From positions 73,749 to 124,439 of the forward strand of contig JAJCZR010000068.1 in NCBI GenBank assembly GCA_029262295.1: a stretch of DNA of 50,691 nucleotides, given 5' to 3'. The DNA is from Deltaproteobacteria bacterium. Its GTDB lineage: Bacteria > Desulfobacterota_D > UBA1144 > Nemesobacterales > Nemesobacteraceae. The stretch's first letter is position 1, and each line of letters opens with the position of its first letter. Both the position numbers and the translations under genes were made by a program. Positions 1,348 to 28,921 of the stretch are shown piece after piece. A model generated the notes under the pieces. That model was not told the DNA's origin and made no database searches. It worked only from the letters and a program-made list of their open reading frames with translations.

Positions 1348-1420
1348 AGATTATTGTTGATTTAGTTTTAAACCCAATTGCCATAAATAAAAAAAATGTT
1401 AATCTAAATTCTCTATATTT

Positions 1421-1494: not shown

Positions 1495-1512
1495 AAATTC
1501 CTTAGAAAGTTT

Positions 1513-1932: not shown

Positions 1933-2006
1933 TAATAAAACTCCTTACCTGTAATACTTTCTATTCTAGTTAATTCAGAAGATTATACCTAATAAGTGTA
2001 AATTGG

Positions 2007-4235
2007 ATGAATTTAGTGTTATTTGGTGATGAAATTAAATCTGCTTTGGCTAAGATATATGAAATGTCATTAAATTTCACAGATGGTTTAAATCCCACAC
2101 AAATAGATTCAGTTAAACATGGAGATGGTCCGCTTTTAATTTTGGCAGGCGCAGGTTCGGGAAAGACAAGAACAATTACACACCGTATTGCTTATTTAGT
2201 GAACGAAAAGGGTATCCCGCCTTTTAATATTCTTGCCGTTACATTCACAAACAAAGCTGCAAGCGAGATGAAGGAGCGTGTTGGAAAGCTCATAGATTCA
2301 AATGTAAAAGGGCTTTGGATCGGCACATTTCATTCAATTTGCCTGCGTATTCTTAAAAGAGATATTGATTTTCTTGATGGGTACGACAGAAGGTTTGTTA
2401 TTTATGATGATCAGGATCAGTTGAAAGTAATAAAGGACTGTCTTAAAGAACTTGATTATAGCGATAAACTGTTTCCGCCTCGATCTATAAGGGGAAAGAT
2501 CGACAGATTTAAGAACAGCGGTGGTACAAATTTCGAGAGTTTTGAGAGTGATTTTTTTGATGAAAGATTAAATAATATATTTGAGTATTATCAAAAAGAA
2601 CTCGCAAGACAGAATGCACTTGATTTTACTGACCTTTTAAAGATTGCTGTGGAGCTACTAGAGAAAAATAAACAAGTACTTTCCTACTATCAAAGAATTT
2701 TTCAGCATATTCTTGTTGATGAATACCAGGACACAAACTATCTTCAATATAAATTTATAAAGCTTCTTTCCGGGGAGCAGCGAAACCTTTTTGTTGTTGG
2801 TGACGATTATCAGTCGATCTATGGTTGGAGAGGGGCTGATATTAACAACATTCTTAATTTTGAAAAGGATTTTTCAGATACAAGGGTTATTAAGCTCGAT
2901 CAGAATTATCGTTCCACGCAAAATATACTTGGCGCCGCAAATGAGCTTATTAAAAACAATGTAGACAGAAAAGATAAGACTCTTTGGACTGATAATACTG
3001 AAGGTGAGCTAATTGATTATCTTGAATCTGATAACGAAATAGATGAGGCCAGGTTCGTTATTTCAGAGATTGAAGAACTTTGTGATTCTGACGATTACTC
3101 ATACAACGATGTTGCAATATTTTATAGGACAAATAACCAGTCAAAATCCATAGAAGACCAGCTTATAAGAAACAACATCCCATACTCAATTGTGGGCGGA
3201 GTTGGTTTTTATCAGAGAGCTGAAATTAAAGATCTGATTGCTTATCTGAAAGTGCTTTTGAATCCGAGGGATGATTTAAGTCTGAAAAGAATAATAAATG
3301 TTCCCGCAAGAGGGATTGGAAAGGCAACTGTCGAAGCTTTATCACAGATAGCAAAGGAAAATGGAGTCAGCCTTTATGAAGCATTAAACAAAGCAGCTGA
3401 GGAAGATTCACTTTCCAACAGGGCATCTTCAAAACTCTCTAAGTTTAATAAGGAAATACTTTTGCAACTTGCTGAAATGGTCTCAAATGATGCGAGCCCT
3501 AAAGACATTATTGAAGAGCTTCTTAGTCTCACTGAGTATATGGATTACATCGAGCTTGAAGACGATCGAATCAAAAACGTGAGTGAGCTTGTAAACCTTG
3601 CATCTGAGTTTGAAAAAGATGAAGGCGGCGCAACTCTTGAAGAGTTTTTAGACTGGATTTCCCTTGCAAGCGATTTTGACAAGTTCGACAAGAATGCTGC
3701 AAAAGTAACTTTAATGACTATACATACCTCAAAGGGACTTGAGTTCCCAATTGTATTTATGATTGGAATGGAAGAGCGCCTTTTTCCCCACATTCGATCT
3801 TATGGTGATAATAAACAACTAGAAGAAGAAAGAAGGCTTTGCTACGTTGGAATAACAAGAGCAAAGAAGAAGCTCTACCTTACAAGTGCTTGCACGAGAA
3901 GGCACTTTGGTACATCACAGGGTGCTATTCCTTCCAGGTTTTTGGGTGAGATACCAACTGAGTTTATTAATGACAGAAACTCTCATCGTTATCAAAAGAT
4001 GGATAATGAGAGTTTGAAAAAATTAGTCTCAAAAAAACCTAAAAGTAAAAGCACACTAAAATCAACTTCGAATAACGGCGGCAATGACAAATTCAAATTC
4101 GGGCAGGGAGTCAATCATCCTAAATTTGGAAGGGGAGTTGTGAAAAAAGTTGATGGAAACGGCGATGATGCAAAAGTGACTGCCGTCTTTCCAAGATTCG
4201 GTTCCAAGACAATTCTGGCTAGTTTTTTGGAATAA
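2007..4235 (+). CDS. pcrA: ATP-dependent DNA helicase, UvrD/PcrA/Rep type
   Basis: A superfamily 1A 3'-5' DNA helicase that unwinds DNA in repair and at stalled forks. The helicase motifs are in order: Walker A GAGSGKT at residues 48-54, TFTNKAASEM, DEYQDTN from residue 238, GDDYQSIYGWRGAD, LDQNYRS, TIHTSKGLEFP and CYVGITRAKKKLYL. The C-terminal tail ends in a short KFGRGVVKKVDG domain as in PcrA. At 742 residues the length is normal. The start is uncertain: ATG 2007 lacks a clear ribosome binding site, and ATG 2064 (MSLNFTDGLNPTQ) matches the usual family N-terminus better. Family certain; naming between pcrA and uvrD is less so. Confidence 0.95.
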   Translation: MNLVLFGDEIKSALAKIYEMSLNFTDGLNPTQIDSVKHGDGPLLILAGAGSGKTRTITHRIAYLVNEKGIPPFNILAVTFTNKAASEMKERVGKLIDSNVKGLWIGTFHSICLRILKRDIDFLDGYDRRFVIYDDQDQLKVIKDCLKELDYSDKLFPPRSIRGKIDRFKNSGGTNFESFESDFFDERLNNIFEYYQKELARQNALDFTDLLKIAVELLEKNKQVLSYYQRIFQHILVDEYQDTNYLQYKFIKLLSGEQRNLFVVGDDYQSIYGWRGADINNILNFEKDFSDTRVIKLDQNYRSTQNILGAANELIKNNVDRKDKTLWTDNTEGELIDYLESDNEIDEARFVISEIEELCDSDDYSYNDVAIFYRTNNQSKSIEDQLIRNNIPYSIVGGVGFYQRAEIKDLIAYLKVLLNPRDDLSLKRIINVPARGIGKATVEALSQIAKENGVSLYEALNKAAEEDSLSNRASSKLSKFNKEILLQLAEMVSNDASPKDIIEELLSLTEYMDYIELEDDRIKNVSELVNLASEFEKDEGGATLEEFLDWISLASDFDKFDKNAAKVTLMTIHTSKGLEFPIVFMIGMEERLFPHIRSYGDNKQLEEERRLCYVGITRAKKKLYLTSACTRRHFGTSQGAIPSRFLGEIPTEFINDRNSHRYQKMDNESLKKLVSKKPKSKSTLKSTSNNGGNDKFKFGQGVNHPKFGRGVVKKVDGNGDDAKVTAVFPRFGSKTILASFLE

Positions 4236-4256
4236 GTTTTAAGTCATCCCGTACAT

Positions 4257-4352
4257 TAAGCTCCTTCTCCCATACAAACATGGGAGAAGGATAAAGGATG
4301 AGGGTCCAAAATTATCCCCCTCACCCTAGCCCTCTCCCACGTTGGGGAGAGG
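4257..4352. repeat. Pair of CCCTCTCCC-type palindromes
   Basis: Two further copies of the repeat family seen at 1196-1347. CCTTCTCCCAT (4263-4273) pairs exactly with ATGGGAGAAGG (4280-4290), an 11-bp stem with a 6-base loop. CCTCTCCC (4331-4338) pairs with GGGAGAGG (4345-4352) and is preceded by CCCCCTCACCC. They lie just after the helicase stop and may slow or end transcription, but there is no T-tract, so a terminator role is only possible. Confidence 0.75.
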
Positions 4353-4442
4353 AGAGTATAATTCTTTTCTTCTCAATAAAATAAAGTTATCTAGGGTAAA
4401 TATAGTATAATTTTAGTAATAAAATTAATGGGGAGGAATAAA

Positions 4443-4973
4443 ATGAGAAATACTTTTATTGCTGTATTTTGCTTATTATTAATTGGTTGTTTTGCAAATG
4501 CAGGTGATGAGAAACAATATCACCATTTAACACCCTACAAAGGAACACCAGAGTTTGAGAAGATGAAAACCCTTGTGGGCACCTGGAAGGGCACAACCAA
4601 GATGGGTGAAAACGAAAAGGAGATTACTGTTACGTATAATACAGCTTCAGCAGATAGTGTGATTGTTGAAAGAATGTTTCCGGGAACTCCCGAAGAGATG
4701 GTTTCCATCTATTATGATAAAGATAGTAAGCTGTCAATGACTCATTACTGTGCACTGAAGAACCAGCCACATATGACACTTACTGATTCGAAATATAATA
4801 GAATTGATTTAGCATTTTCAGGTGGCAGCAATTTCGATCATAAAAAAGATCCATACATGCACTCTTTATCAATAGATTTTGTAGATAAAAATAATATTGT
4901 TCACAACTGGACAATGTATGATAAGGGCGAAGAAAACCATGCAAGTACATTTAAACTTTCAAGGGTTAATTGA
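4443..4973 (+). CDS. Exported DUF1579-like protein, possible lipoprotein
   Basis: A 176-residue exported protein. The N-terminus is a short basic segment and a hydrophobic stretch ending LLLIGC-FANAG. LIGC fits a lipobox, while ANA-G would fit signal peptidase I, so the anchoring is undecided. The mature part contains KTLVGTWKGTTKM and the beta-rich pattern of the DUF1579 family (lipocalin-like, function unknown). ATG 4443 is chosen because GGGGAGGA lies 6-12 bases upstream; the in-frame ATG at 4428 would precede that site. It converges on selO with a 13-base gap and no terminator. Family call from motif pattern, moderate confidence. Confidence 0.8.
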   Translation: MRNTFIAVFCLLLIGCFANAGDEKQYHHLTPYKGTPEFEKMKTLVGTWKGTTKMGENEKEITVTYNTASADSVIVERMFPGTPEEMVSIYYDKDSKLSMTHYCALKNQPHMTLTDSKYNRIDLAFSGGSNFDHKKDPYMHSLSIDFVDKNNIVHNWTMYDKGEENHASTFKLSRVN

Positions 4974-4986
4974 TTTCATAAGAATA

Positions 4987-6459
4987 TTAAGACGAACAAC
5001 TAATCACCAAATCTTTAGCCCAATCAGGTGATTCAATTGCTAACTCTTCATGTTCTGGCTGTTCATCAAAAGGATTTTTAAATATTTTTCTTATTCTGTC
5101 AATCTCATCATAATTTTTATTATCTTCTGCTTCCCTTATTACCTGCTCACAAATATAGTTTCTGAGAATATATTTAGGATTAACGGAATCCATTAAATCT
5201 TTTCTTTCATTATCTCCAAGAGTTTCTTTTTTTAATCTTTCCCTATATTTTTCAAACCACTCACTTAGATCCGGACTTGTAACACTTAGCTTTTTTAAAT
5301 ACTGATCTTCAGCTTTATTTTTTACCTTTTTGAAATTAGACAGTTTTCTGAAAAAGACTGTGTAATCAATCTCAAACTTCTCCAGAATTTCCAGAGTATT
5401 ATCTATAAATTTTCTGTCTTTTTCAACCTGTTTTTGAAAACCAAATTTTTTAAACATTAAGTCATAGTAAGAGTTGAAATAAACATTTTTATATGTTTCA
5501 AGGGCCTCAACTCCCTCATCGCTGCTAATTACTGTTTGAAGTGCCTGGACTAATTTGCCAAGGTTCCAGTAGCCGATCGAAGGTTGATTCTGATAGCTAT
5601 ACCTGCCAAAGTGATCCGAATGATTGGGAATATATTCCTGTTTAAACTCTTCCACAAAGCCATAGGGTCCGTAGTCCAAAGTTAAACTTGTAATAGACAT
5701 ATTATCAGTGTTCATTACGCCGTGTGTAAAACCAAATACCTGCCATTTGGCAATTAACTCGGCAGTTCTTTCCGCAACTTTTATAATAAAAAGTTTGTAT
5801 TTGTTGTCCTCTTTTTTAATTTCAATAAAATTATTTTCAATTACATAATCTGCCAATATCTTTATATTTTCATAATCTTTGTCATAGTAAAAAGCCTCAA
5901 ATGAACCGAAGCGGACATGTGTCTCAGCCATTCGGATTAAAGACGCCCCGGGTTCACTTTTTTCCCTCTCCACTTTGTCTTCGTTGCCAATAATGCAAAG
6001 CGCCCTTGTTGTAGGAATACCGAGGCTAAACATTGCCTCGCTGCAAAGATATTCCCTTATTGTCGATCTCATGACAGCCCTTCCATCAAATTGCCTCGAG
6101 AACCTTGTTCTTCCGCTTCCTTTTAAATGAAGATCATATTTTTTATTTTTTTTATTTCTGACTTCTCCGAGCAATATTGCCCTTCCATCTCCGATATTGG
6201 GGTTATAAACTCCAAACTGATGGCCTGTGTAGTACATAGCTATTGGGTTTGATCCCGGGATACCCAGGTTTCCACTTAGATATTCTGCGATCTTCGGGTT
6301 TTCTTTTTCACTCGTGCACAGATCAATTAAGTTTGCACAATCCTGATTGAAAGCGGCTAAAAATGGATTTTTAACCGCAGTCGGTTTAACTTCTTGATAG
6401 AAATTGTCAGGCAATTGTGAATAAGTATTGTCAAAATTAAGTTTATCGATTTTGTTCAC
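4987..6459 (-). CDS. selO: Protein adenylyltransferase SelO (YdiU/UPF0061 family)
   Basis: SelO is a pseudokinase-fold enzyme that transfers AMP from ATP to Ser, Thr or Tyr of target proteins and is linked to redox stress. The 490-residue product shows YTGHQFGVYNPNIGDGRA, HLKGSGRTRFSR with K113, HGVMNTDN with D252 and N253, and DYGPYG with D262 in the position of a kinase DFG. These match the characterised bacterial SelO active site. The C-terminus is SCSS, with an ordinary Cys codon (TGT) where animal SelO has selenocysteine. Start is GTG with no clear ribosome binding site; only 22 bases separate it from the divergent DUF2103 gene. Confidence 0.95.
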   Translation of the reverse strand: MNKIDKLNFDNTYSQLPDNFYQEVKPTAVKNPFLAAFNQDCANLIDLCTSEKENPKIAEYLSGNLGIPGSNPIAMYYTGHQFGVYNPNIGDGRAILLGEVRNKKNKKYDLHLKGSGRTRFSRQFDGRAVMRSTIREYLCSEAMFSLGIPTTRALCIIGNEDKVEREKSEPGASLIRMAETHVRFGSFEAFYYDKDYENIKILADYVIENNFIEIKKEDNKYKLFIIKVAERTAELIAKWQVFGFTHGVMNTDNMSITSLTLDYGPYGFVEEFKQEYIPNHSDHFGRYSYQNQPSIGYWNLGKLVQALQTVISSDEGVEALETYKNVYFNSYYDLMFKKFGFQKQVEKDRKFIDNTLEILEKFEIDYTVFFRKLSNFKKVKNKAEDQYLKKLSVTSPDLSEWFEKYRERLKKETLGDNERKDLMDSVNPKYILRNYICEQVIREAEDNKNYDEIDRIRKIFKNPFDEQPEHEELAIESPDWAKDLVISCSS

Positions 6460-6481
6460 ATAGAAAAGTTAACCAAACATT

Positions 6482-6763
6482 ATGAAATATAGAAAAAACA
6501 AAATAAAAAGAGAACACGGAATCATTAAAGGACTTAAGAAGTTTTTAGAAAAAAATATTTCCGACCTTGATTATGTGACAGGAATTATTCCAGGTGAGAT
6601 CACAGTTGGTAATGCTACAGGAGAAAATCTGGTTGTAAGATATAAATACAGTACGGTTAGCGGAGCAAAACTTCTAGCAAGGAGCGGAAATTCAGTGCAG
6701 GAAGTGTTTGTTATAACAAGTGAAGCCGACAAGCTCGAAGAAGCGATTGAATCTTTAGGCTAG
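6482..6763 (+). CDS. DUF2103 protein, predicted metal-binding
   Basis: A 93-residue protein that begins MKYRKNKIKREHGIIKGLKKFLE and ends with a KLLARSGNSVQEVFVIT segment. This pattern matches DUF2103, a small family annotated as predicted metal-binding, with the REH segment near the N-terminus as the candidate ligand region. Biochemical function is unknown. No ribosome binding site is visible before ATG 6482, and the divergent selO start is 22 bases away, so one or both messages may have very short leaders. The 3' end overlaps the 3' end of dnaE by 9 bases on the opposite strand. Family call from memory of the pattern; moderate. Confidence 0.75.
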   Translation: MKYRKNKIKREHGIIKGLKKFLEKNISDLDYVTGIIPGEITVGNATGENLVVRYKYSTVSGAKLLARSGNSVQEVFVITSEADKLEEAIESLG

Positions 6764-9700
6764 GCTTACAACATTCTCTCCTAAAAGGTTTTCCACATTT
6801 TTTATAAAATTATCCTCTATTTCCACTTTGCAGTTTCCGACTTCCACAACTGAAATAGCTTCATCTGTGTTAAGCTGAAGTACCACTGTCGATTCACCTG
6901 GAAATTTTTCAAGTATTTCTTTCAGGGTTTCGAGTTTCTCAGGATTTGCATGACACTGCTTTACTTTTATTTGAATTGAAGAATTAGCCCTCATCTGCCG
7001 AAGAGAAAATATATCTGTTACCTTTATCTTTACTTTATCTTCGTTTCTTTCCGCAATGCCTTTCACAATTATCGGCTCTATTTTTTGTTCAAGGATTGCC
7101 ATAGATTTTCTGAGAGTATCGTTGAAAATTACACCTTCAATAAAACCATTTAGATCTTCAAGTACGAGATTGGCCAAAATTCCGTTGCCCCGTTTTGTGT
7201 GTTTAATATCGAGTGATCTTACAACTCCTGCAATAGCTACCGTTGCTTTGTCTCTTACAGTATTAATTGATTCGGAGTCGACTTTGGAAGTATATTTTTT
7301 TAGTTCATTTGCATATTTTCTCATGGGATGGGTCGACACATAAAAACCTAGCACATCAAGTTCATTTGAAAGGATTGTTTGTTCATCCCAGTTTTCCACA
7401 TCTTCAAGCACAGGGGCAGAAACGGATTCTGAGATTTCAAAAAGTGCATGCTGCCCTTCAACATCACTTTTTTGTTTAAGCGAACTGTAGGAAATAAGGT
7501 TATCCAAGGATTCAAAAAGTTGGGCTCTGTTAATATTAATTGAATCAAAAGCCCCGCATCTTATAAGGCTTTCGAGTGTTCTTCTGTTGAGCTTTCTTGA
7601 TTCTATCCTGGTACAAAAATCAAAAACAGTCTCAAATTTACCTTCTTCATCCCTTGTTGTGAGGATCGCTTCAACTGTGCCTTCTCCTACATTTTTAATA
7701 GCTGAAAGGCCAAACCTTATTTTTCCATCGGCAGGTGTAAAGCCAGACATACTCACATTTGCATCAGGTGCGAGCACTTCAATTCCATGTTTTCTGCATT
7801 CTGTAATACTTGAGATTACCTTGTCTGTGTTGTTAGCCTCAACTGTCATAAGTGCGGCCATAAACTCAGCGGGATAATGAGTTTTTAGATAAGCAGTCTG
7901 ATAAGTGATAAGAGCGTAAGCTGTGCTGTGAGATTTATTAAAAGAGTACTCGGCAAACTTTTCCATTGTATCAAAAAGTTCTTTTGCTTTTTTATCATCA
8001 ATCCTATTTTCTTTTGCACCAGAGAGAAAACGTTTGCGCTGAGCTTTCATTTCCGCAGGCTTCTTCTTTCCCATAGCCCTTCTGAGAAGATCGGCTTCCC
8101 CAAGGCTGTAGCCTGCAATTTCACTTGCAGTTTTCATTATCTGTTCCTGATAAACAAAAAGTCCATAAGTGTCACTTAAAATCTCTTTTAGTTTTGGATG
8201 CGGAAAAACTACTTTTTTACCGTGCTTTCTGTCAATAAACTGGTCTACCATACCACTATCAAGCGGACCTGGTCTGTAAAGTGCCAAAACTGCCACAATA
8301 TCTTCAAACTTTGTGGGCTGAAGGCGGGCCAGCAGGTCTTTCATTCCGGAAGACTCAATCTGAAAAACCCCTCTTGTAAGTCCATTGGTTAGCAGCTTAT
8401 AAACTTCTTTATCATCAAGCGGTATTTTGTTGATATTAAATTTCTCACCGCCATTTTGGTGGTTCTTCCAGATATGTTTAACAGCTTTATCTATTACAGT
8501 AAGTGTTTTTAGCCCTAAAAAATCAAACTTTACATAACCAAGTTTTTCAATGCAGTTCATATCAAACTGGGTTACAGTTTCATCTTTGCTTCCTCTGTAA
8601 AGTGGTATGTAATCCGCGATAGGCTCATTTGCTATTACCACTCCTGCAGCATGGGTTGAAGAGTGGCGCACCATATTTTCAAGAGGTTTTGCGAGTTCAA
8701 TAAGTTCTTGAAGGTCTTTAGAGTTTTTAATAAGCTCTTTTATTTCCTTAACCTGCTCAATCGCTTCATTAATGCTAAAAACCTTTCCCCTGAAAGATGG
8801 AATCAGCTTTGAGACTTTATCAACTTCGGCGTAAGGAATTCCAAGCACCCTTCCAACATCTTTCACAACTGCCTTTGCCGACATTGTTCCAAATGTGCCG
8901 ATCTGGGCTACTTTATCTTTGCCATATTTTTCTGTTACATACCTTATAACTTCGTCTCTACCTTCTGTGCAGAAATCCACATCAATATCAGGCATGCTTA
9001 CCCTTTCCGGGTTTAAAAATCTCTCAAATATTAGGTTGTAAGGAATGGGGTCAACTTCTGTAATTCCAAGAGCATAAGCGACAAGGCTTCCTGCAGCACT
9101 ACCCCTGCCGGGCCCAACTGGTATTCCGTTTTTCTTGGCATAATAGATAAAATCGGAAACAACGAGAAAATATCCGGAAAAACCCATATCACAGATAATC
9201 TTTAGTTCAGTTTCAAGCCTTTCCCTGTAGGTTTGAAATTCACTTTCTGGTATTTCATTTTCTTTTAATTTTTCTTCAAGGGTTTTTCTTGAAAGGTCAC
9301 ACATAAACTCATCAAGTGATCTTCCATCGGGAGGAATAAATTCAGGGAATTTGTATCCATTTGTTTTAAATTCAAAACTGCATCTTTCCGCAATTTTTAA
9401 AGTTTGCTCTATAGCATCATCGAATCCGGTGAGATCATTTTTCATCTGCTCCCTGGATTTTACAAAAAAATCATCGCCATTAAACCTGAACCTTTTTTCT
9501 TCTTTTACGGATGAGCCGGTTTGTATACATAAAAGTGCGTCATGCGGTTTGGCATCTTCTCTTTTAAGAAAATGACAGTCATTTGTGGCAACAAGCGGAA
9601 TATTTAGCTTCTTACCAATATCTTTTAGTTTTCCGTTAATCAGATTTTGTTCTCTTAATCCTGTTGCCTGTACTTCAAGGTAGTATCTGTCACCAAATAT

Positions 9701-10189
9701 CTCTTTATACATTGAAGCAAGGCTAAGAGCTTTCTTTTTGTCCTTATTAAACAAAGCCCTTGATATTTCACTGTTTAAACAACCGCTTAAAACAATTAAA
9801 CCTTCACTGTGATCTGAAAGAATTTTGTGATCAACTCTCGGGCGGCGGTAAAAGCCTTCAAAATATCCTTTTGTTACCAGGTTTGAGAGGTTTTTATAAC
9901 CTGCATCATTCATGCATAGCACTGTCAGGTGAAAGTTCTTTCCATCAGATGGTTTTTCAAGTTCAAGAGTCGGTGTTATATATATTTCACAGCCAATAAT
10001 TGGCTTTACATTAGCTTTTTTAGCCTTTTCATAAAACTCGTAAGCACCAAACATATTTCCATGATCTGTAAGGGCTACGGCAGGCATATTTGATTCTTTA
10101 GCCCAGTCGGCCAATTCATCGAATTTTATGGCGCCGTCTAGTAATGAGTATTGGGAGTGAAGGTGGAGATGAACAAAGGAGTCTGACAT
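6755..10189 (-). CDS. dnaE: DNA polymerase III alpha subunit
   Basis: The replicative polymerase catalytic subunit. The 1144 residues contain an N-terminal PHP domain (VHLHLHSQYSLLDGA), the polymerase active site PDIDVDF with D401 and D403 at the same positions as in E. coli, GRGSAAGS upstream, a tandem helix-hairpin-helix region, and an OB-fold near the C-terminus (AGVVRSLDIKHTKRGNG). Length is that of DnaE1-type enzymes. A near-consensus promoter at 10198-10226 places the transcript start within a few bases of the ATG, so the message may be leaderless. The 3' end overlaps the DUF2103 gene by 9 bases with no terminator between them. Confidence 0.97.
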   Translation of the reverse strand: MSDSFVHLHLHSQYSLLDGAIKFDELADWAKESNMPAVALTDHGNMFGAYEFYEKAKKANVKPIIGCEIYITPTLELEKPSDGKNFHLTVLCMNDAGYKNLSNLVTKGYFEGFYRRPRVDHKILSDHSEGLIVLSGCLNSEISRALFNKDKKKALSLASMYKEIFGDRYYLEVQATGLREQNLINGKLKDIGKKLNIPLVATNDCHFLKREDAKPHDALLCIQTGSSVKEEKRFRFNGDDFFVKSREQMKNDLTGFDDAIEQTLKIAERCSFEFKTNGYKFPEFIPPDGRSLDEFMCDLSRKTLEEKLKENEIPESEFQTYRERLETELKIICDMGFSGYFLVVSDFIYYAKKNGIPVGPGRGSAAGSLVAYALGITEVDPIPYNLIFERFLNPERVSMPDIDVDFCTEGRDEVIRYVTEKYGKDKVAQIGTFGTMSAKAVVKDVGRVLGIPYAEVDKVSKLIPSFRGKVFSINEAIEQVKEIKELIKNSKDLQELIELAKPLENMVRHSSTHAAGVVIANEPIADYIPLYRGSKDETVTQFDMNCIEKLGYVKFDFLGLKTLTVIDKAVKHIWKNHQNGGEKFNINKIPLDDKEVYKLLTNGLTRGVFQIESSGMKDLLARLQPTKFEDIVAVLALYRPGPLDSGMVDQFIDRKHGKKVVFPHPKLKEILSDTYGLFVYQEQIMKTASEIAGYSLGEADLLRRAMGKKKPAEMKAQRKRFLSGAKENRIDDKKAKELFDTMEKFAEYSFNKSHSTAYALITYQTAYLKTHYPAEFMAALMTVEANNTDKVISSITECRKHGIEVLAPDANVSMSGFTPADGKIRFGLSAIKNVGEGTVEAILTTRDEEGKFETVFDFCTRIESRKLNRRTLESLIRCGAFDSININRAQLFESLDNLISYSSLKQKSDVEGQHALFEISESVSAPVLEDVENWDEQTILSNELDVLGFYVSTHPMRKYANELKKYTSKVDSESINTVRDKATVAIAGVVRSLDIKHTKRGNGILANLVLEDLNGFIEGVIFNDTLRKSMAILEQKIEPIIVKGIAERNEDKVKIKVTDIFSLRQMRANSSIQIKVKQCHANPEKLETLKEILEKFPGESTVVLQLNTDEAISVVEVGNCKVEIEDNFIKNVENLLGENVVSLA

Positions 10190-10197
10190 CGGGATTA

Positions 10198-10226
10198 ATT
10201 ATATATCAGTTTGTGGGGTTAGTAAA
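10198..10226 (-). promoter_or_regulatory. Candidate promoter of dnaE
   Basis: On the minus strand, TTTACT and TATAAT are separated by 17 bases. The -10 hexamer ends only 8 bases before the dnaE ATG, so a start at the usual distance gives a message with almost no leader. Predicted from consensus only. Just upstream (10231-10258) lies a degenerate GGATACAAGATGCATC repeat motif. Confidence 0.45.
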
Positions 10227-10269
10227 AAGTTGCAGGATTCAGGATACAAGATGCATCTTTTCATAAAAG

Positions 10270-11988
10270 CTACCTTTTTAATTTAAAACCTTCTTTTTCC
10301 CTGTCCCAAGTATCTTTTGTAAGTCCCTGTTCCCTGAGTTTATTTTTCTGGACTCTTTGCGTGCCCGTCTTTGGAAAAGATTTAGTGAACCTAATGTACT
10401 TTGGCATCATGAAATAGGGCATTTTTGGTTCCAAAAATTTCATAAGGGCTTCTGGTTTCAAAGCTTTTCCTTTTTTCATGATAATTAGAATCATAAGTTC
10501 GTCTTCTGCATATTTCCCGGTTTTGGATTTTATTGCTATTGCCGCGGACTCTTCAATGTCAGGGTGAGAACTAACAGTTTTTTCAACTTCAAAAGAGCTT
10601 ATATTTTCTCCCCTTATTCTTATATAATCCTTAACCCTGTCTACAAAATATATGTATCCATCTTTGTCCATTCTTCCTGCATCACCTGTGTGAAACCAAA
10701 AATTTCTGAAATCTTCGACAGTTTTTTGCGGCATCTTGTGATAATAATGAAGCATCACATTTGGTATCCTGGGACGTACAATTATTTCTCCTAGCTCTCC
10801 CCTTGGCACTTCTTCATCAGTTGCAGGATCTGAAACTTTTATTTCGTAGTTTGGAGCTTCTTTCCCGCAAGAGCCAACCCTGAAAGGTTCACCCGGACGC
10901 ATCCATGTGCACTGACCGATCTCAGTTAGTCCGTAACCTTCCATAAATTTGATATTAAACCTTTCCATAAACTCCTCGATCATATCGTGAGGGGCAGGTG
11001 ATCCTAAAACCAGTTTTACATTATGCTGATTTTCTTCAGGCACAGGTGGGGTATTCCAAAGAAAATAAGAGATTGTGCCAACAATATTAAATTTTGTAAC
11101 TTTGTGATCAACTATCCATTTCCAGAACCTGCTGGCACTATATTTTTCTTCAACTACAGTTTTAGCGCCTTTAATAAGCGCAGGATAAACAGTCATAACC
11201 ATTGCGTTTGAATGAAAAAGGGGAAGACATGTAAAACAAACATCTTTTGGTCCCACATCCATAATCTCAGCATAATTTCTCGCGCTGCTGTAATCCGCTG
11301 CAGATGGTCTCATTACTCCCTTTGATCTGCCTGTGGTGCCGGATGTGTACATAAGCCTTGCATAGTCCATTAAAGTTACTTCAACTTTTGGCTCAGAGGT
11401 TTTCTGCGGTTCAATAAAGTCTTTGTAAGAGGTCATCCTTTTGAATTTAAAACCGTGTTTTTTAAATTTTTCTCCGCCGTCCCTTGTCCACACAACCACA
11501 TGCTCAAGTTTGGGAATTCTTTTGGCAATAGGCACCATTCTCTCCAAATACTCTTCAGCAATAAAAAGCACTTTAGCATCTGAGCTTTCAATTATGTATT
11601 GAAGAAAATCCATAACATAAGCTGTATTAATTGGAACCATAACGGCACCCATTTTCAGGATGCCAAACCATGTGATCACATAATCATCAGAGTTGGGCAT
11701 ATACACTGCCACTTTTTCTTGTTTCTTTATTCCAAGGGAAGTAAGTCCGTTAGCAATTTTGTTTGAAAGTTTATTAGTCTGATAAAAGCTGATAGGTTTT
11801 TTATATCCGAATTGCAAAAAAGGTTTTTTGCCGAGTTTTTTTGCCTGCTGTTTTAATACTTTTGGGAGTACCCAGTTGGTCCTGTCTTCCTTTTTATACC
11901 AGTCAACATCAAACTTACCGTTTTCACGTTTGTAAGTGACAGGATGCATAAGGTCTTTCTGCTTTTTCTTTCTGCTTTTTGGTGGCAT
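10270..11988 (-). CDS. AMP-dependent acyl-CoA synthetase/ligase, CaiC-like
   Basis: Activates a carboxylic acid to its acyl-CoA through an acyl-AMP intermediate. The 572 residues carry the ANL-superfamily motifs: MYTSGTTGRSKGVMR (phosphate loop), EGYGLTEIGQCTW, WFHTGDAGRMDKDGYIYFVDR and the hinge RIRGENISSFEVE, with a C-terminal GTQRVQKNKL that carries the late catalytic Lys. The layout resembles fatty-acid and crotonobetaine/carnitine-CoA ligases; the substrate cannot be told. Start ATG 11988 has an AAAGAGGAT ribosome binding site. No other beta-oxidation gene is nearby. It precedes dnaE on the same strand, but dnaE seems to have its own promoter. Confidence 0.9.
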   Translation of the reverse strand: MPPKSRKKKQKDLMHPVTYKRENGKFDVDWYKKEDRTNWVLPKVLKQQAKKLGKKPFLQFGYKKPISFYQTNKLSNKIANGLTSLGIKKQEKVAVYMPNSDDYVITWFGILKMGAVMVPINTAYVMDFLQYIIESSDAKVLFIAEEYLERMVPIAKRIPKLEHVVVWTRDGGEKFKKHGFKFKRMTSYKDFIEPQKTSEPKVEVTLMDYARLMYTSGTTGRSKGVMRPSAADYSSARNYAEIMDVGPKDVCFTCLPLFHSNAMVMTVYPALIKGAKTVVEEKYSASRFWKWIVDHKVTKFNIVGTISYFLWNTPPVPEENQHNVKLVLGSPAPHDMIEEFMERFNIKFMEGYGLTEIGQCTWMRPGEPFRVGSCGKEAPNYEIKVSDPATDEEVPRGELGEIIVRPRIPNVMLHYYHKMPQKTVEDFRNFWFHTGDAGRMDKDGYIYFVDRVKDYIRIRGENISSFEVEKTVSSHPDIEESAAIAIKSKTGKYAEDELMILIIMKKGKALKPEALMKFLEPKMPYFMMPKYIRFTKSFPKTGTQRVQKNKLREQGLTKDTWDREKEGFKLKR

Positions 11989-20931: not shown

Positions 20932-21006
20932 GAGCGCGTAGCTCAGGGGAAGAGCGCTTGCTTGACATGCAAGAGGCCGCAGGTTCAAATCCTGCCGTGC
21001 TCACCA
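20932..21006 (+). tRNA. tRNA-Val (anticodon GAC)
   Basis: Full cloverleaf by hand: acceptor GAGCGCG with CGTGCTC (one G-U pair), D arm GCTC/GAGC, anticodon stem CTTGC/GCAAG with loop TTGACAT giving anticodon GAC at 20964-20966, T arm GCAGG-TTCAAAT-CCTGC, discriminator A and encoded CCA (21004-21006). It reads GTC and GTT codons. A TTGACA lies at 20885-20890, but no -10 hexamer sits at the right distance. No integrase or attachment-site duplication is seen beside it. Confidence 0.97.
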
Positions 21007-21139: not shown

Positions 21140-21168
21140 TTTACAAATTTTATCAATTGACCTATAAT
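21140..21168 (+). promoter_or_regulatory. Promoter of the C25 protease gene
   Basis: TTTACA (21140-21145) and a perfect TATAAT (21163-21168) are separated by 17 bases. The predicted start near 21175 leaves a leader of about 95 bases before the ATG at 21270. Confidence 0.65.
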
Positions 21169-21269: not shown

Positions 21270-24200
21270 ATGTTAAATTCAAAACTAAATTCAACAAAAA
21301 ATTCGGGGCTACTGATACTAATATCGGTTTTGTATCTGGCCGTATTTCAATTTGGAAATGTTTCCTATGGCCAGACATGTGATGATGTATTAAATCCTGA
21401 TGGAACTACGTTTACTCCTATCTCCTTTGCGGATGGCACTCCCACTTTAGAACAAGGAACAGCTCTTCAACCAGGTGCAGTATATAGATTTGATGATGTT
21501 ACAACAGGTGTGGATGCATTAGTTGAGATAGTGAGTTTTAATGATGGTGGTTCTATTACTGATATCGACAACAATAATGGTTTAGGAACTGGAACCGAAC
21601 CATTTCAGCCAGTATTTGATCCTGAAACTGACAACCCTGATTCCAGTGTGGATTTTCTTATTACTTTTGTTACAGCTGATACAAGTACACCCGTTGCAAT
21701 ATCCGGATCGGTAATTGCAACAGGAATTGATATTGATGATGGAATAGGAGGAGCAGGAAATTTTGAATATCAAGAATTAGCAGGAGCTGATTCTTATACT
21801 GTTGAAACTATTAATGATTTAGAATTATTTCCTCCCAGAGCACAAAGTGCAACTTCAGATGGGCATCCACCATCCAGTTTAGCAAACAGATTTACAGCTG
21901 TTTACACTAATATATCTCAATTTGGATATAGAATTGGATTTGTAGCCAGTTCAGATGATGATAGCACAACTACATATATTTTGGATATGTTTAACTGTAC
22001 TGACTACACCGATCCTAATAATGTAGATCCGAATGCATGTAGTTTTGGCCCGGGTGAGCCAGAAATGGCAATTGAAACACCTATTTTTAGGGCTCCTGAA
22101 GGTTTAAACGGTGCAGATACAACTAGCAACGATGGTGGGCCTGGTCCACTTGTGGGAGATATTTTCAGATTTACAAATGTTACCAATTTAAATGATCCAG
22201 CTAATGGAATTGATGCTCTTGTGGAAGTTCTCTCTGAGACTGGAGGTGATTTAGTAAGTATTGATGGAAATGAAATTGGGGCACAAAATAACCTTCAACC
22301 TGAATTTTCCCCAACTGCAGCTGAAGCATTTGCCGAACTTCGAATTAGTTTTGTTGCTCCCGGTGAAACTAATCCAGCAAATACAATAAATTTTCCAGGA
22401 ACTTTTCTTGCCACAGCTCAGGACGTTGATGGTGATGAAGGAGATGCTCCATTTGATCCTGACGGATTAAAGGAGCTTGTTGAGTTAAGAGGGGCAAATG
22501 TGCTTACTTTTGAGACTCCGACTAATCTTGTGGCCAATCCACCCAGATTTAATGCGCAAGATGATCAAAATTTTCCTGCTATTTCTACAACTGCCACAAC
22601 AAATATGGTGACCGGCACATATACTAATGTTGCTTCTTTTACTTATGCTTTTGGTGCCTTAGATGCCGGAGGTAATGATGATGCAAGGTTAAATAGCCTT
22701 ACTTTCAGATGCCAGATGTATCAAAATCCACAAAATGTAAATGCACCAAATATTGGAGCTTCAAAAACAGTTTTTGATGGCCCGACTACGAATGGAAATG
22801 GGGATGTGGAAGTTACCTATGAACTCACAGTTGAAAACCTTAGTGTTCAGGACCTTCATGATGTGAGGCTTTCAGACGACCTTCTTACATTCGGCACATT
22901 TGTGAGTCCGGGGCCACCAGATGCAGATCAATATACTGTGAATACACCGACAATAGTTGCCCAAAGCAATACATCCGGAACCTTTGCCATAAACACTGGT
23001 TTTAATGGTTCATCCGATACAGAAATACTAAATGCCTCTACCGGAAGTGGTTCACTTGATGGTGGCACAGCTGATGGAATGGGTAGCGTTACAGGCGGGG
23101 GATCAATTACTATCAGATTTACTGTAACTTTTGATACTAATGATTTTAACCAGACATTTTTGAACCAGGCAATTACAAATGCCGATACTAATAATGACGG
23201 CACTACAGATTTTGACGAAGGTATATTTGATCTTTCTGATAATGGCACTGATCCTGACCCTGATGGCGATGGTAACGGAAATGAATCGAGTGCAACTGAA
23301 GGGCCTGAAGCACTTGATAATCAAAACCTGGATAACGATCGAAATGTTAATAGCGGAATTGTTACTCTTTTATCAATTGATGGAAACGATGTTGATACAG
23401 ATGGCACAGTGGATGTATCAACAATAGACCTTGATCCAAATACTCCCGGACAGCAGACTACTTTTAATGTTGCAGGAGAAGGTTCATGGGCTGTTAATAC
23501 AACCACAGGTGATGTTACATTCACCCCTCTTGGAGGCTTCACCGGTAACCCAACACCAATTTTTTATAATGTAAAAGATGATGATGGAAATATATCCAAC
23601 CAGGCAATGCTTACAGTTACTTATATTGGAAATCCTGTGGCTGTGGATGATGAAAGTCTGAATAACCCTGCTGGGAATGTAACTGTGGATATTGATAATA
23701 ATGATATTGCAAGTGATGATCCGCTAGATCTTACGAGCGTTGATCTTGATCCGGAAACTGCGGGCCAGCAAACTTCTTTAAATGTTCCCGGGGAAGGGAC
23801 CTGGACTTCTAATGGCGATGGCACTGTAACATTTGCGCCTGAAGGAGGATTTACAGGGAATCCAACTCCAATCCAGTATACAATTAATGATACAAATGGC
23901 GACAGGAGCAATCCTGCAACAATTACGATTACTTATGTTGCTGCACCGACAGCTCTTGATAACAGAAGGTTAAATCAGCCTTTCGGCCAGGATGCTTCAA
24001 GGGATATTCTTACAAACGACAGAGAGGCAGATAGTGCTCTTGACCCTGATACTGTAGATCTTATTCCACCTGCTGGTTTTACAATAAATAATCAGATGAC
24101 AGATGCAGATGGAGATCTTATTAGCTTTGAGGTTGCAGGCCAGGGAACATGGACATATGATCCATCAAATGGAATTTTAACATTCTCACCTTTTGTCGGA

Positions 24201-26849
24201 TTTACTGATGATCCTACTCCAATCAACTACACTGTTCGTGATCAGGAAGGAGATAGATCGAATGTGGCAATGATGACTGTCACTTACGGCGGTGATGCAG
24301 GTAACTGTCCAAGTATGGATCCGACAGACGAGTGTGAAAACGATCCAACTCCAATTAATCTTTCCACCGTATCAGTAACGCTGGCAAGTTTTGAAACGAG
24401 TTTAGTAGAAGGTGGAGTGCGGTTTGACTGGACAACGGCAACCGAGGAACAAAACATAGGATTTAACTTATATGGATATAGAGGCGGACAAAAAGTAAAA
24501 CTGAATGAGAACATAATCTTCACAAAGAACGGCGATGCAAGAGAGCCACAATACTATGATCATATAGTAGATGTGCCGGAAGATATAGAAAAAGTTGGTA
24601 TATCTTCAGTAGATTGTTTTGGCTTTGAAGAACATTATGGCCCTTATGAGATAGGTGCAACCTTCGGTGATCTTGTGGAAGGTGAGCCAGTTGACTGGGA
24701 ACAGATAAAAGAAGAGCACGATACAAATATGATTGAGATGGGCTATGAGAAAAAAGGAAAAGCATGGAGAAAAACTCAAGTTGAGCAGGGCCTTCTAAGC
24801 AGAGTAGCAAACTCAGTAATGACAGCTCTAAGGCTTGATGGCGATAATATCTGCCACGTGGAAGTAAGCGCGGAGGGTATTCACAGAGTAACTTACGAAG
24901 AACTTGCATCTGCAGGTTGTGATTTTAACAGAGAAAGGGCAGGAGATATAAGTGTAAGTTATAAAGGTGAGCCTGTGGCAAGACGTATAGAAAGGGGATT
25001 TAGGTTTGACACGAGAAGTTATATAGATTTTTATGGAGAGTTGCCCAAAGGAAAAGAAGCCCTTTTTATAAATAAAAGAGTGTATCAGATACAGTTAGAC
25101 AAAAGCCTTGTAAAAAACAGGCAGCTTATCAGAAGAAGAGGGGGAAGAGCAGCAGACACTCTTAGTTATGCAAAAGAGTTAAAACAGGCAAACCAGATTT
25201 TTTACACAGAGTCCTCGGCAACCGGGGATCCCTTTTACGAGACTTTTCTTTTTACACAAAACAGTCCGAATAGCTACAGCGTAGATTTTAATGTGGCAGA
25301 CAATCTATCAGGGCAAGGCAAGGTGAGGGTAGTGCTAGGAGGATTTGTACAACTTCCAGGGGCACAGAATGACCATCACATAAGAGTGCACCTGAATGAA
25401 GTTGAAATAGCGGATGTCGAGGCAGATGGGTTTGTGAAAATAGAGATAGAGAGCGATGTAGACAATATAGTAAATGGTACAAACACCGTAAGAATAGAGC
25501 TTGTTGGAGATACAGGTCTAGTGTTTGATGCAGTGATAGTGGAATCAACAGAGCTACATTACGAAAGTCCACTATTAACAGAAACCAACAGCCTTCTTTA
25601 CACAAGTAGTGGAAACAGGCATGAAGTGGGCGGTTTTACAGAAAGAGACATAGAAGTTTATGGGTATGACGGAGAAGACCTTTATCAGATAGAAAGTCAA
25701 AGAAGAAGAAGAGGCAGGGTGTACCGTGTAATATTTAACGGTACAGGCACTGAATCAGATTACTGGGCATCTTCAGAATCACAGCTCCTAAGTGGAAATG
25801 TATATAAGTTTGAAGCAGCAGCAGATGACCTTCTTGGTGGAAGCGGCGAGCTTTTAGTGATAGCCCACCCAAGTTTAATGGGAGCTGATCTTAATGGATA
25901 TATTTCATCAAAACAAAGTGAAGGCTATACAGTAAAGCTTGCAAACATACTTGATGTGTATGAAGAGTATGGATATGGAATGGCGCTGCCTGAAGCAATA
26001 AGGGATTATGTGGCTGAAGCCGATGCTGCACTTAATACAAACACAGTAGTGCTAGTAGGTGGCGGAAGTTACGATCACCGTAACTTTACTAATAGTGGTA
26101 TTACAGATTTTATTCCAACAATGTACAGATTGACAAACGATACGATCTTTTATTCACCATGCGATGGCTGTTTAGTGGATACACAGTTAGGTGATGATGT
26201 GGCAGACTTGGCACTTGGAAGATTTCCTGCAAGGACGCAGCAAGAGCTAAGCGCAATGCTTAATAAAGCACAGATAGCATTGGGTGATAGTTCACTACTG
26301 GTTGCAGGAGAGAATGACGGAAGATTAGACTTTGCACAGCAGATGGAAAGTGTTGGAAGTCATTTGCCAACAGGTAATGTACAAAAAATATATGTGGATG
26401 ACTTTGCGTCAGTTGCTGATGCAAGAAACCAGATGTTTGCAGAGATAAACAATGGAGTAGGTCTATGGCTTTACTCAGGACATGCAGGATCACTTGCATG
26501 GAGGGATAACTTACTCAGATGGGATACTGCAGGCAGCGAGCTGACAAACAGTGCAGCGCCGGCTGGTATGATGCCCCTTACATGCTATACAACATACTAT
26601 CTAAGCCCGAATATAATGACGCTTGCGCACCAGCTAATGAACAATGCAAGTGGGGCCAAGTTTATAAGTGGTGCAGGAGTGCTGAGTAACTTCAGTGAGA
26701 ATGAAGAGTTTACAGTGAGTATCCTTGATAAGATGAATGAAGGAAAAACAATAGGCCAGGCGATACTTGAGACAAAGCAGGAAAATAAAGGGCTATCGGA
26801 TCAAGTGGTAAACTGGATACTTCTTGGAGACCCGACTGAGAAGTTTTAA
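21270..26849 (+). CDS. Giant secreted gingipain-type (C25) cysteine protease with Ig-like repeats
   Basis: A 1859-residue exported protein. ATG 21270 is chosen because GAGGGGAG lies just upstream; the frame extends to 21255. Residues 1-35 are a signal peptide ending near SYGQ. Two related domains follow (about 60-260 and 290-490; compare GVDALVEIVS with GIDALVEVLS), then a DUF11-like domain (about 490-650), three tandem Ig/cadherin-like repeats (about 682-1005, each with GFTGNPTPI or GFTDDPTPI), a fibronectin-like segment (WTTATEEQNIGFNLYGY, about 1035-1130), and a C-terminal C25 peptidase region with the catalytic pair as LYSGHAG (His1738) and MPLTCYT (Cys1772). No known C-terminal sorting tag is seen. 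Isoleucine codon choice changes sharply near residue 1035. The C25 call rests on motif spacing; substrate unknown. Confidence 0.85.
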   Translation: MLNSKLNSTKNSGLLILISVLYLAVFQFGNVSYGQTCDDVLNPDGTTFTPISFADGTPTLEQGTALQPGAVYRFDDVTTGVDALVEIVSFNDGGSITDIDNNNGLGTGTEPFQPVFDPETDNPDSSVDFLITFVTADTSTPVAISGSVIATGIDIDDGIGGAGNFEYQELAGADSYTVETINDLELFPPRAQSATSDGHPPSSLANRFTAVYTNISQFGYRIGFVASSDDDSTTTYILDMFNCTDYTDPNNVDPNACSFGPGEPEMAIETPIFRAPEGLNGADTTSNDGGPGPLVGDIFRFTNVTNLNDPANGIDALVEVLSETGGDLVSIDGNEIGAQNNLQPEFSPTAAEAFAELRISFVAPGETNPANTINFPGTFLATAQDVDGDEGDAPFDPDGLKELVELRGANVLTFETPTNLVANPPRFNAQDDQNFPAISTTATTNMVTGTYTNVASFTYAFGALDAGGNDDARLNSLTFRCQMYQNPQNVNAPNIGASKTVFDGPTTNGNGDVEVTYELTVENLSVQDLHDVRLSDDLLTFGTFVSPGPPDADQYTVNTPTIVAQSNTSGTFAINTGFNGSSDTEILNASTGSGSLDGGTADGMGSVTGGGSITIRFTVTFDTNDFNQTFLNQAITNADTNNDGTTDFDEGIFDLSDNGTDPDPDGDGNGNESSATEGPEALDNQNLDNDRNVNSGIVTLLSIDGNDVDTDGTVDVSTIDLDPNTPGQQTTFNVAGEGSWAVNTTTGDVTFTPLGGFTGNPTPIFYNVKDDDGNISNQAMLTVTYIGNPVAVDDESLNNPAGNVTVDIDNNDIASDDPLDLTSVDLDPETAGQQTSLNVPGEGTWTSNGDGTVTFAPEGGFTGNPTPIQYTINDTNGDRSNPATITITYVAAPTALDNRRLNQPFGQDASRDILTNDREADSALDPDTVDLIPPAGFTINNQMTDADGDLISFEVAGQGTWTYDPSNGILTFSPFVGFTDDPTPINYTVRDQEGDRSNVAMMTVTYGGDAGNCPSMDPTDECENDPTPINLSTVSVTLASFETSLVEGGVRFDWTTATEEQNIGFNLYGYRGGQKVKLNENIIFTKNGDAREPQYYDHIVDVPEDIEKVGISSVDCFGFEEHYGPYEIGATFGDLVEGEPVDWEQIKEEHDTNMIEMGYEKKGKAWRKTQVEQGLLSRVANSVMTALRLDGDNICHVEVSAEGIHRVTYEELASAGCDFNRERAGDISVSYKGEPVARRIERGFRFDTRSYIDFYGELPKGKEALFINKRVYQIQLDKSLVKNRQLIRRRGGRAADTLSYAKELKQANQIFYTESSATGDPFYETFLFTQNSPNSYSVDFNVADNLSGQGKVRVVLGGFVQLPGAQNDHHIRVHLNEVEIADVEADGFVKIEIESDVDNIVNGTNTVRIELVGDTGLVFDAVIVESTELHYESPLLTETNSLLYTSSGNRHEVGGFTERDIEVYGYDGEDLYQIESQRRRRGRVYRVIFNGTGTESDYWASSESQLLSGNVYKFEAAADDLLGGSGELLVIAHPSLMGADLNGYISSKQSEGYTVKLANILDVYEEYGYGMALPEAIRDYVAEADAALNTNTVVLVGGGSYDHRNFTNSGITDFIPTMYRLTNDTIFYSPCDGCLVDTQLGDDVADLALGRFPARTQQELSAMLNKAQIALGDSSLLVAGENDGRLDFAQQMESVGSHLPTGNVQKIYVDDFASVADARNQMFAEINNGVGLWLYSGHAGSLAWRDNLLRWDTAGSELTNSAAPAGMMPLTCYTTYYLSPNIMTLAHQLMNNASGAKFISGAGVLSNFSENEEFTVSILDKMNEGKTIGQAILETKQENKGLSDQVVNWILLGDPTEKF

Positions 26850-26884
26850 AAGAAAAAAGAAACATTAAAAAATCTGGTATAAAA

Positions 26885-26911
26885 AAAGGGAGCTATCATA
26901 GCTCCCTTTTT
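26885..26911 (+). terminator. Rho-independent terminator of the C25 protease gene
   Basis: GGGAGCTA (26888-26895), loop TCA, TAGCTCCC (26899-26906), then TTTTT. A matching A-run before the stem makes it work in both directions in principle. Strong. Confidence 0.92.
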
Positions 26912-27010: not shown

Positions 27011-28921
27011 ATGAGTATTGAAATAGAAATAAACGGAGAAAAACAACAGTTTTCATCAGGGGTTTCCATTTCTGAGGTTATGAAGAAGATGGAAATTGAT
27101 GAAAATAAGTGGGTAGGTGCCAGAGTTGAAGGCAAAGTTGTAGATTTTTGGCATAATATTCGTGAAGACTCACAAATCTCCCTTATAAAAAGAGATTCGG
27201 ATGAAGGGCTTTTACTTGTAAGGCATACTGCAGCACATGTGCTGGCAGAAGCAGTGCAGTCTATTTTCCCGGAAGCAAAAGTGACAATAGGCCCCGTGAT
27301 TGAAAATGGTTTTTATTACGACTTTGATTTTGAGAGGGGGTTTACTCCTGAAGACCTTGAGAAAATAGAGTCGAAAATGCAAGAGATTATAAGTGAAAAC
27401 AGAAAGATGGCCCGAAAAACTGTTTCCAGGGCCGAGGCAATTAAAACTTTTGAAAAAGATGGTGAGACATATAAAGTTGAAATTATTAACGACCTTCCCA
27501 AAAATGATGATATTACAATTTATAGCCAGGAAAAATGGTATGATCTTTGCAAAGGGCCTCATGTCCCAAATACAGCTTTAATAAAGGTGTTTAAGCTTAC
27601 AAGCTCCGCTGGCGCCTACTGGAGAGGAAATGAAAACAACCAGATGCTCCAGCGAATTTATGGCACTGCCTTTTGGGACAGAAAAGCCCTTAAAAAACAT
27701 CTAAATCAACTCGAAGAAGCAAAGAAAAGGGACCATAGAAAACTTGGAAAAGAGCTCGATCTTTTCAGTTTTCACGATGATATTGGGCCTGGTCTTATTC
27801 TTTGGCACCCAAAAGGTGCAAAAATAAGAAGGACTATTGAAGATTTTTGGCGTGATGAGCATGAAAAATTTGGATATGAAATACTTTTCACTCCCCATAT
27901 GGCAAAGCTTGATCTTTGGAAAATAAGCGGCCATGTGGATTTTTACAGAGAAAATATGTTTTCCCCAATGGATGTTGAAAACTCTGAATATCAGATAAAA
28001 CCAATGAACTGCCCATTTCATATTTTGATATATAAATCAAAATTGAGAAGCTACCGCGATCTTCCCCTTAGATGGGCTGAGATAGGCACCGTGTATAGGT
28101 ACGAAAGATCTGGAGTGCTTCATGGATTGCTTAGGGTCAGGGGTTTTTCCCAGGATGATGCACATATATTTTGCAGGCCTGATCAAATTCAGGATGAGGT
28201 GGCAGGAGTCTTGGAGTTAACCCTGAGTTTTTTAAAAACATTTGGTTTTGATGATTATGAAATTTTTCTTTCAACACGCCCCAAAAAGTTTGTCGGCTCG
28301 GAAGAAAACTGGGATAAAGCCACAGATGCAATAAGGATGGCGCTTGAAGGAAAAGGCCTTTCATACGAAGTTGATGAGGGCGGCGGTGCGTTTTATGGGC
28401 CCAAGATTGATCTAAAGATAAAAGATGTTTTGGGAAGAGCTTGGCAGTGTTCTACAGTTCAGGTAGATTTTAACCTTCCTGAAAGATTTGAGATGAGTTT
28501 TGCGGGTGAGGATAATTCGCGTCATACGCCAATAATGATACATAGGGCCATCTTTGGTTCTATTGAAAGATTTTTTGGAATACTGATTGAGCATTACGGT
28601 GGGGCATTTCCACTCTGGTTAAGTCCCGAGCAGGTTAGGATTGCGAATATAAGTGATGAACAGATAGATTACTGCGAGGAAATCTACACATCACTTAAAA
28701 GTAAAGGTATAAACGTGGAAAAAGATTTCAGGAATGAGAAACTTGGCTATAAGGTTAGGGAAGCACAGTTGATGAAAGTTCCTTATATGCTTGTGGTTGG
28801 TGATAATGAGGTTGATCAAAAAACAGTGTCAGTCAGAAAATACAGTGAAAAGAAAATGAATTCAATGACGATAGATGATTTTAGTTCTAAAATATTAGAT
28901 GAAATCAGTTTGTATAATTAA
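27011..28921 (+). CDS. thrS: Threonine-tRNA ligase
   Basis: Charges tRNA-Thr. The 636 residues show the N-terminal TGS domain (MSIEIEINGEKQQFS), the editing domain (VRHTAAHVLAEAV with the HxxxH pattern), the class II core with MNCPFH in which Cys334 is at the same number as the E. coli zinc ligand, RYERSGVLHGLLRVRGF (motif 2), IMIHRAIFGSIERFFGIL (motif 3), and an anticodon-binding domain at the end. Length is typical. It heads thrS-infC-rpmI-rplT, an order conserved widely in bacteria. The infC ribosome binding site begins 3 bases after the thrS stop. Confidence 0.98.
   Translation: MSIEIEINGEKQQFSSGVSISEVMKKMEIDENKWVGARVEGKVVDFWHNIREDSQISLIKRDSDEGLLLVRHTAAHVLAEAVQSIFPEAKVTIGPVIENGFYYDFDFERGFTPEDLEKIESKMQEIISENRKMARKTVSRAEAIKTFEKDGETYKVEIINDLPKNDDITIYSQEKWYDLCKGPHVPNTALIKVFKLTSSAGAYWRGNENNQMLQRIYGTAFWDRKALKKHLNQLEEAKKRDHRKLGKELDLFSFHDDIGPGLILWHPKGAKIRRTIEDFWRDEHEKFGYEILFTPHMAKLDLWKISGHVDFYRENMFSPMDVENSEYQIKPMNCPFHILIYKSKLRSYRDLPLRWAEIGTVYRYERSGVLHGLLRVRGFSQDDAHIFCRPDQIQDEVAGVLELTLSFLKTFGFDDYEIFLSTRPKKFVGSEENWDKATDAIRMALEGKGLSYEVDEGGGAFYGPKIDLKIKDVLGRAWQCSTVQVDFNLPERFEMSFAGEDNSRHTPIMIHRAIFGSIERFFGILIEHYGGAFPLWLSPEQVRIANISDEQIDYCEEIYTSLKSKGINVEKDFRNEKLGYKVREAQLMKVPYMLVVGDNEVDQKTVSVRKYSEKKMNSMTIDDFSSKILDEISLYN

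Follow-up and report, generated by a model that had tools for sequence, protein, structure and literature searches.

The C25 Gene and Its Genomic Site

The window, the whole stretch of 50,691 nucleotides that was analyzed, carries on its forward strand one intact reading frame (positions 21270–26849, ATG to stop) that, by the open reading frame list and its translation, encodes a C25 protein of 1859 amino acids. The parts of this protein described below all lie on the same strand. The list begins the frame at a GTG (21255), 15 bases ahead of the ATG at 21270, which was kept as the start because GGGGAG directly precedes it. The gene stands alone, with a promoter-like site on its 5′ side and a terminator-like hairpin on its 3′ side. 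The former (TTTACA-17-TATAAT, 21140–21168, forward strand) shows 11 of 12 consensus matches about 100 bases from the gene; it is regarded as weak, since the region holds 13 such sites, fewer than the 19.2 found in shuffles. The hairpin (26883–26911, forward strand) has 13 pairs and a T-rich tail. The GC content of the gene (41.1%) is slightly higher than that of its neighbors (33.9–40.6%) and its codon usage distance of 0.062 is ordinary (neighbors, 0.050–0.088), so that recent transfer, when judged by composition, was unsupported. Elsewhere in the window, the reverse strand (47062–49962) encodes another protease that is probably exported, an S41 enzyme of 966 amino acids that carries PDZ domains and weakly matches CARDB and SH3_3.

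The C25 gene is the sole gene in the approximately 6 kb that separate the end of a tRNA-Val (GAC) gene (20932–21006, forward strand) from the start of thrS (27011–28921, forward strand), the left and right edges of an insertion. ThrS was matched in 41 of 43 genomes including that of the window, and 18 of the 40 matching relatives were inspected at this site. In all 18 the tRNA-Val gene was located 22–114 bases ahead of the ThrS match, and ARAGORN identified tRNA-Val (GAC) in the 16 loci submitted. The purC gene was found upstream in nine of the 18; the others had no purC or the locus ended too soon. The gap is also short (locus L043) in G019, the genome of the nearest relative of the protein, where the C25 gene is located elsewhere. 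Since the gap in the relatives is 22–114 bases compared to 6 kb here, the plain reading is that this lineage acquired the C25 gene at the tRNA-Val/thrS site, or that the gene moved, with moves in both lineages. Integration linked to the tRNA with duplication of the ends was also considered and rejected, as the two edges share no repeat of at least nine bases.

The C25 Domain and the Regions That Precede It

The peptidase C25 domain occupies residues 1529–1856 (25854–26837). The match to PF01364 has an E-value of 1.7e-42 and 146.4 bits (cut-off 23), covers profile positions 2–371 of 374, and stops three residues short of the end of the protein, so that the domain is the C-terminus itself. His1738, within LYSGHAG (26481–26483), and Cys1772, within PLTCYT (26583–26585), were aligned with the residues of gingipain R that we take to be His211 and Cys244; the number of the former agrees with the chain numbering in the profile match to the PDB. 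An independent profile was built with 15 C25 domains of two different genomes and included neither the window protein nor its nearest relative. It matched residues 1529–1855 with 65.5 bits and placed its GHG and Cys columns on residues 1738 and 1772. A 17-row alignment that includes the window protein was then compared with the PDB, and the profile matched gingipain R (2e-64), Kgp (9e-46) and PorU (2.1e-36); beyond these, there was a single chain at E 0.59. The spacing between His and Cys is 34 in the window protein and 33 in gingipain R. The only invariant columns of this alignment are one Gly, one Arg and the Cys, present in 17 of 17 domains. The His is absent from eight of the 17, all of them from other genomes, indicating that the family includes forms without the His/Cys pair, of which the window protein is not one. 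When the window protein was searched against the PDB as a single sequence, no gingipain was matched, indicating a large distance to these enzymes.

The third catalytic residue of gingipain R and its S1 residue are presumably Glu152 and Asp163. In the alignment with the 15-domain profile a candidate for the Glu was found one column off, and the counterpart of Asp163 could not be safely placed. Because neither residue was located, specificity for basic residues is suggested by the family alone. The structure model of residues 1033–1859 together with the relative had a mean pLDDT of 37.9 and a pTM of 0.23, too poor to assess the fold or the geometry of the active site; a Foldseek search with it listed latent PorU first (E 8e-8) and was not used as support. 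The AlphaFold model of the two N-terminal repeats was also poor (mean pLDDT 46.6, pTM 0.51), and its best Foldseek matches, adhesin and carbohydrate-binding domains with E-values from 0.0098 up, were treated in the same way. A CxxC motif, CDGC (residues 1631–1634, 26160–26171), is present within the C25 domain of the window protein and its relative and in none of the other 15 aligned domains; a disulfide or a metal site is possible. An additional loop rich in Cys is present in the relative.

The protein starts with a stretch that, by eye, resembles a signal peptide (residues 1–35, 21270–21374), with a basic start, a hydrophobic core and no lipobox. It is followed by a duplicated domain, with repeats at residues 36–258 (21375–22043, containing GVDALVEI) and 259–490 (22044–22739, containing GIDALVEV). 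Self-alignment of residues 36–260 with 256–490 showed 32% identity over 202 columns (pairwise E 5e-19), each repeat being about 220 residues long. The repeats matched no Pfam family at E ≤ 10 and no plasmid, and among the 57 genomes of the phylum their profile found one, with the window's own copy. In the phylum of the comparison genome G059 none of 17 genomes was matched, a result that is uninformative because nothing at all matched there. The N-terminal domain of the relative is unrelated (hhalign E 0.24). The duplicated domain is therefore unclassified.

The next region, approximately residues 491–690 (22740–23339), resembles DUF11, but its match to PF01345 (E 2e-4) scored 22.1 bits, under the cut-off of 24.6. 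Three CshA-type/Big_9 repeats follow at about residues 691–1006 (23340–24287), as found in Pfam, NCBIfam and PDB searches. CshA_repeat PF19076 matched three stretches (E 1.4e-24, 87.1 bits, cut-off 27), as did TIGR04225 (E 2.1e-30, 105.6 bits, cut-off 60), and Big_9 was also matched in this region in the Pfam scan. A fibronectin-like segment (about residues 1032–1135, 24363–24674) is conserved in the relative and matched no Pfam family at E ≤ 10. Between this segment and the C25 domain, approximately residues 1195–1527 (24852–25850) form a PorU-type N-domain. Positions 8–729 of the PorU model NF033707 aligned with residues 1195–1856 at 110.4 bits, short of the cut-off of 420, and the PorU2 model NF052324 reached 100.5 bits and missed its cut-off of 450. 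A four-row profile of the N-domain led to residues 33–195 of PorU (PDB 6za2, E 3.6e-7). As SprA-bearing genomes supplied two of the four rows, this match reflects a shared family anatomy and not a link to PorU alone. The N-domain includes RRRRGR (residues 1478–1483, 25701–25718), a possible self-processing site ahead of C25 that is not kept in the relative. A second Arg-rich cluster, RRRGGR, starts at residue 1288 (25131–25148), also within the N-domain and not conserved in the relative. Pfam and NCBIfam scans found no T9SS tail, PEP-CTERM or LPXTG-type family in the protein, and the Pfam scan found no gingipain propeptide.

Much of a preliminary description of this DNA agrees with these results: a giant multidomain C25 protein outside Bacteroidota, with the His/Cys pair in LYSGHAG and PLTCYT, C25 at the extreme C-terminus, three Ig-like repeats, a duplicated and unrecognized N-terminal domain, and no type IX or PEP sorting tag. 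Its DUF11-like domain found a match in PF01345 that stayed below the cut-off, and its label "fibronectin-like" must be taken as an impression, since no family was matched. The term "gingipain-type" was right in that this is a C25 protein; "C25 with a PorU-type N-domain" is the tighter description, the nearest models being PorU and PorU2, with scores far below their cut-offs.

Relatives, Host and Secretion Genes

C25 is rare in this phylum. Among 57 sampled genomes, all from one class, it was found in two: that of the window (2.2 Mb in 83 contigs, not closed, completeness 98.77%) and G019. It was absent from all 13 other genomes of the same family. It is abundant in two genomes of other phyla, G057 and G059, with nine and ten matches, respectively (loci L002, L003 and L005–L021); eight of the 15 aligned domains from these genomes do not have the catalytic His. 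The homologue in G019 (L027, JAJCZQ010000031.1, isolate OFTM105), which belongs to another family of the same order, has 1165 amino acids and shares 34% identity with approximately residues 1028–1854 of the window protein, or 39% in the C25 domain alone. It was the only relative found when genome contigs were scanned with the profile A1. Scans of viral contigs with the profiles A1, A4 and A5 confirmed no relative, and phages gave no match. Among plasmids, the C-terminal half matched one record, a Parabacteroides porU (E 1e-5).

A rhodopsin gene was detected in six of the 14 genomes of a family with genomes of about 1 Mb and in none of the 43 in the rest of the phylum. In Dadabacteria, rhodopsins are reported only in the pelagic I clade, and pelagic genomes have about 1.22 Mb (PMC8115339). 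The rhodopsin pattern and these published clade traits make Dadabacteria the most likely host group. That the host is not a member of Bacteroidota is independent of this assignment.

Contig 52 of the window genome carries a run of gspC–K genes (about 667–10346). Those for gspC (GspC_delta), D, E, F and G exceeded their curated cut-offs, and gspH, I, J and K were under theirs; gspD scored 492.8 bits, over its cut-off, with an identical score in G019. The type IX gene searched for was sprA, and the SprA_N profile matched neither the window genome nor G019. It matched both C25-rich comparison genomes, G057 and G059, which serve as positive controls because 14 control genomes never match this profile. 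In the report on Dadabacteria cited above (PMC8115339), type II secretion is ascribed to the non-pelagic clades. The operon makes the protein a putative type II substrate, with an N-terminus that, by eye, resembles a Sec signal peptide; type II signals are unreadable from sequence. How the protein leaves the cell had been left open, with a check of secretion genes proposed; the gspC–K operon is now an obvious candidate, and sprA was not found. A second secretin-like gene was observed in G019 (contig C25, 36581–37441) and in another genome, G014 (contig C27, 28288–29160). Its match contains one TAA and has a neighboring piece in another reading frame; the pattern could reflect a gene end, a frameshift or two separate genes.

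Proposed Function and Alternatives

The domain layout and the genomic context suggest, with a probability of about 0.6, that the gene encodes a secreted, adhesin-armed extracellular C25 cysteine endopeptidase of a probable Dadabacterium, exported by the Sec and type II systems. The N-terminal signal would direct the protein through Sec, and the type II system would move it, already folded, over the outer membrane. An acidic arm of about 1000 residues may then anchor it to a particle, a host matrix or a cell surface, where the C-terminal C25 domain would cut proteins beside a basic residue and feed a heterotrophic cell. The N-domain would hold C25 in check until a cleavage, perhaps autocatalytic, at the Arg-rich loop 1478–1483, a loop not kept in the relative. 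Lys and Arg are few in the arm, 24 in 995 residues (36–1030) compared to 70 in 829 (1031–1859). Self-protection as an explanation for this composition was rejected. The matched stretches of five of eight plasmid records contain 0.0, 1.8, 9.5, 2.4 and 0.7% Lys plus Arg, four of the five being equally poor or poorer; four of these records are annotated as OmpA-family, tandem-95 or Ig-like and L077 has no gene annotation. Because CshA-type repeats of non-protease proteins share this poverty, it was not counted as evidence.

An adhesin whose C25 domain has lost its enzyme function is unlikely. The long adhesin-type arm, the third catalytic residue that was not placed and the eight domains of other genomes without His would fit such a protein, but both His and Cys are present in the window protein and in its relative, and the entire C25 domain is 39% conserved between the two. 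We also regard as rather improbable a stand-alone PorU-like sortase, in which C25 would trim and re-attach surface proteins of the same cell instead of digesting food. The scores of 110 and 100.5 bits for cut-offs of 420 and 450, respectively, the failure to find SprA in the window genome, the lack of the C-terminal part of PorU, the adhesin arm outside the PorU models and the fact that no family of cargo tags was seen all argue against it. In its favor, PorU and PorU2 are the nearest curated models and align across both the N-domain and C25, the N-domain profile led to PorU 33–195, and latent PorU came first in the Foldseek search with the poor model. A variant of this idea, a PorU-like C25 transpeptidase that is free of type IX, mounted on a stalk and exported by type II, and that trims or anchors surface proteins while its Lys/Arg-poor arm is spared, is very improbable.

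Two further explanations concern the origin of the gene and its export, and we give little credence to either. The protein could be type IX cargo, as in Porphyromonas, the type IX genes having been missed through an incomplete assembly or divergence. Such an explanation is in line with C25 family membership and with an unclosed genome of 83 contigs, but the completeness is 98.77%, the protein has no type IX tail, and SprA_N, from the only type IX gene searched, is absent from this genome and from the separate genome G019 while it is present in G057 and G059. A chimera of assembly or binning that joined a Bacteroidota-type gene to this contig is just as hard to credit: against the absence of the gene from all 13 genomes of the same family stand its location within the contig, with purC/tRNA-Val on one side and thrS on the other, as in the relatives, its codon usage distance inside the range of its neighbors, and the homologue of its C-terminal 830 residues in another genome of the order that was assembled separately.

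The preferred reading, a secreted endopeptidase, can be compared with known systems. In published reports, C25 accounted for more than 40% of exported peptidase genes in estuarine sediment, with gingipains of Thermoprofundales and Bathyarchaeota being cited (PMC6752024), and C25 proteins bearing dockerins were described in Cloacimonadota (PMC8542988). These proteins of sediment archaea and Cloacimonadota resemble the window protein as exported C25 enzymes outside Bacteroidota; instead of the dockerin tails reported in Cloacimonadota, the window protein has a CshA-type arm. The preliminary description had treated such an occurrence as unusual; since it was already published, the surprise is modest, and the locus illustrates a known enzyme family well and is not a new kind of system. 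In the open-access literature searched, we found no report of Dadabacteria with gingipain or C25 and no paper joining three of the terms C25, gingipain, type II secretion system and CshA; the main text of PMC8115339 does not mention C25. The locus thus adds a probable Dadabacterium to the lineages that bear C25 and points to a specific enzyme that may serve protein feeding in a poorly known phylum. If the protein is exported by type II, diderm C25 enzymes would not be bound to type IX secretion.

The window protein shares the C25 catalytic domain with gingipain R (RgpB; PDB 1cvr, 4ief) and Lys-gingipain (4rbm), and its His and Cys fall in the corresponding columns. In the gingipains the adhesin part lies behind the protease, whereas here it lies in front. 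This layout, with the CshA arm first, C25 at the extreme C-terminus, neither a type IX tail nor a match to the gingipain propeptide, and a context of type II genes without SprA found, is unlike that of a textbook gingipain. The type IX sortase PorU shares the arrangement of N-domain and C25 over residues 1195–1856; the window protein differs from it in its score, the missing C-terminal part, the long N-terminal arm and the failure to find SprA. CshA-type and tandem-95 surface proteins (PF19076, TIGR04225; PDB 6szc) have repeats like the three found here, which are fused to a protease, while the best plasmid matches, from Roseivivax and Deinococcus, carry OmpA-family or tandem-95 annotations. 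The homologue in G019 shares the signal-like N-terminus, the fibronectin-like segment, the PorU-type N-domain and C25, but has another N-terminal domain, no CshA match and, by eye, msrA-like and aat-like neighbors. Upstream of it, on contig 31 (L022, 44–3250), lies an open reading frame of 1068 amino acids with C-terminal Gly/Asp-rich repeats that, by eye, resemble the calcium-binding repeats of RTX proteins.
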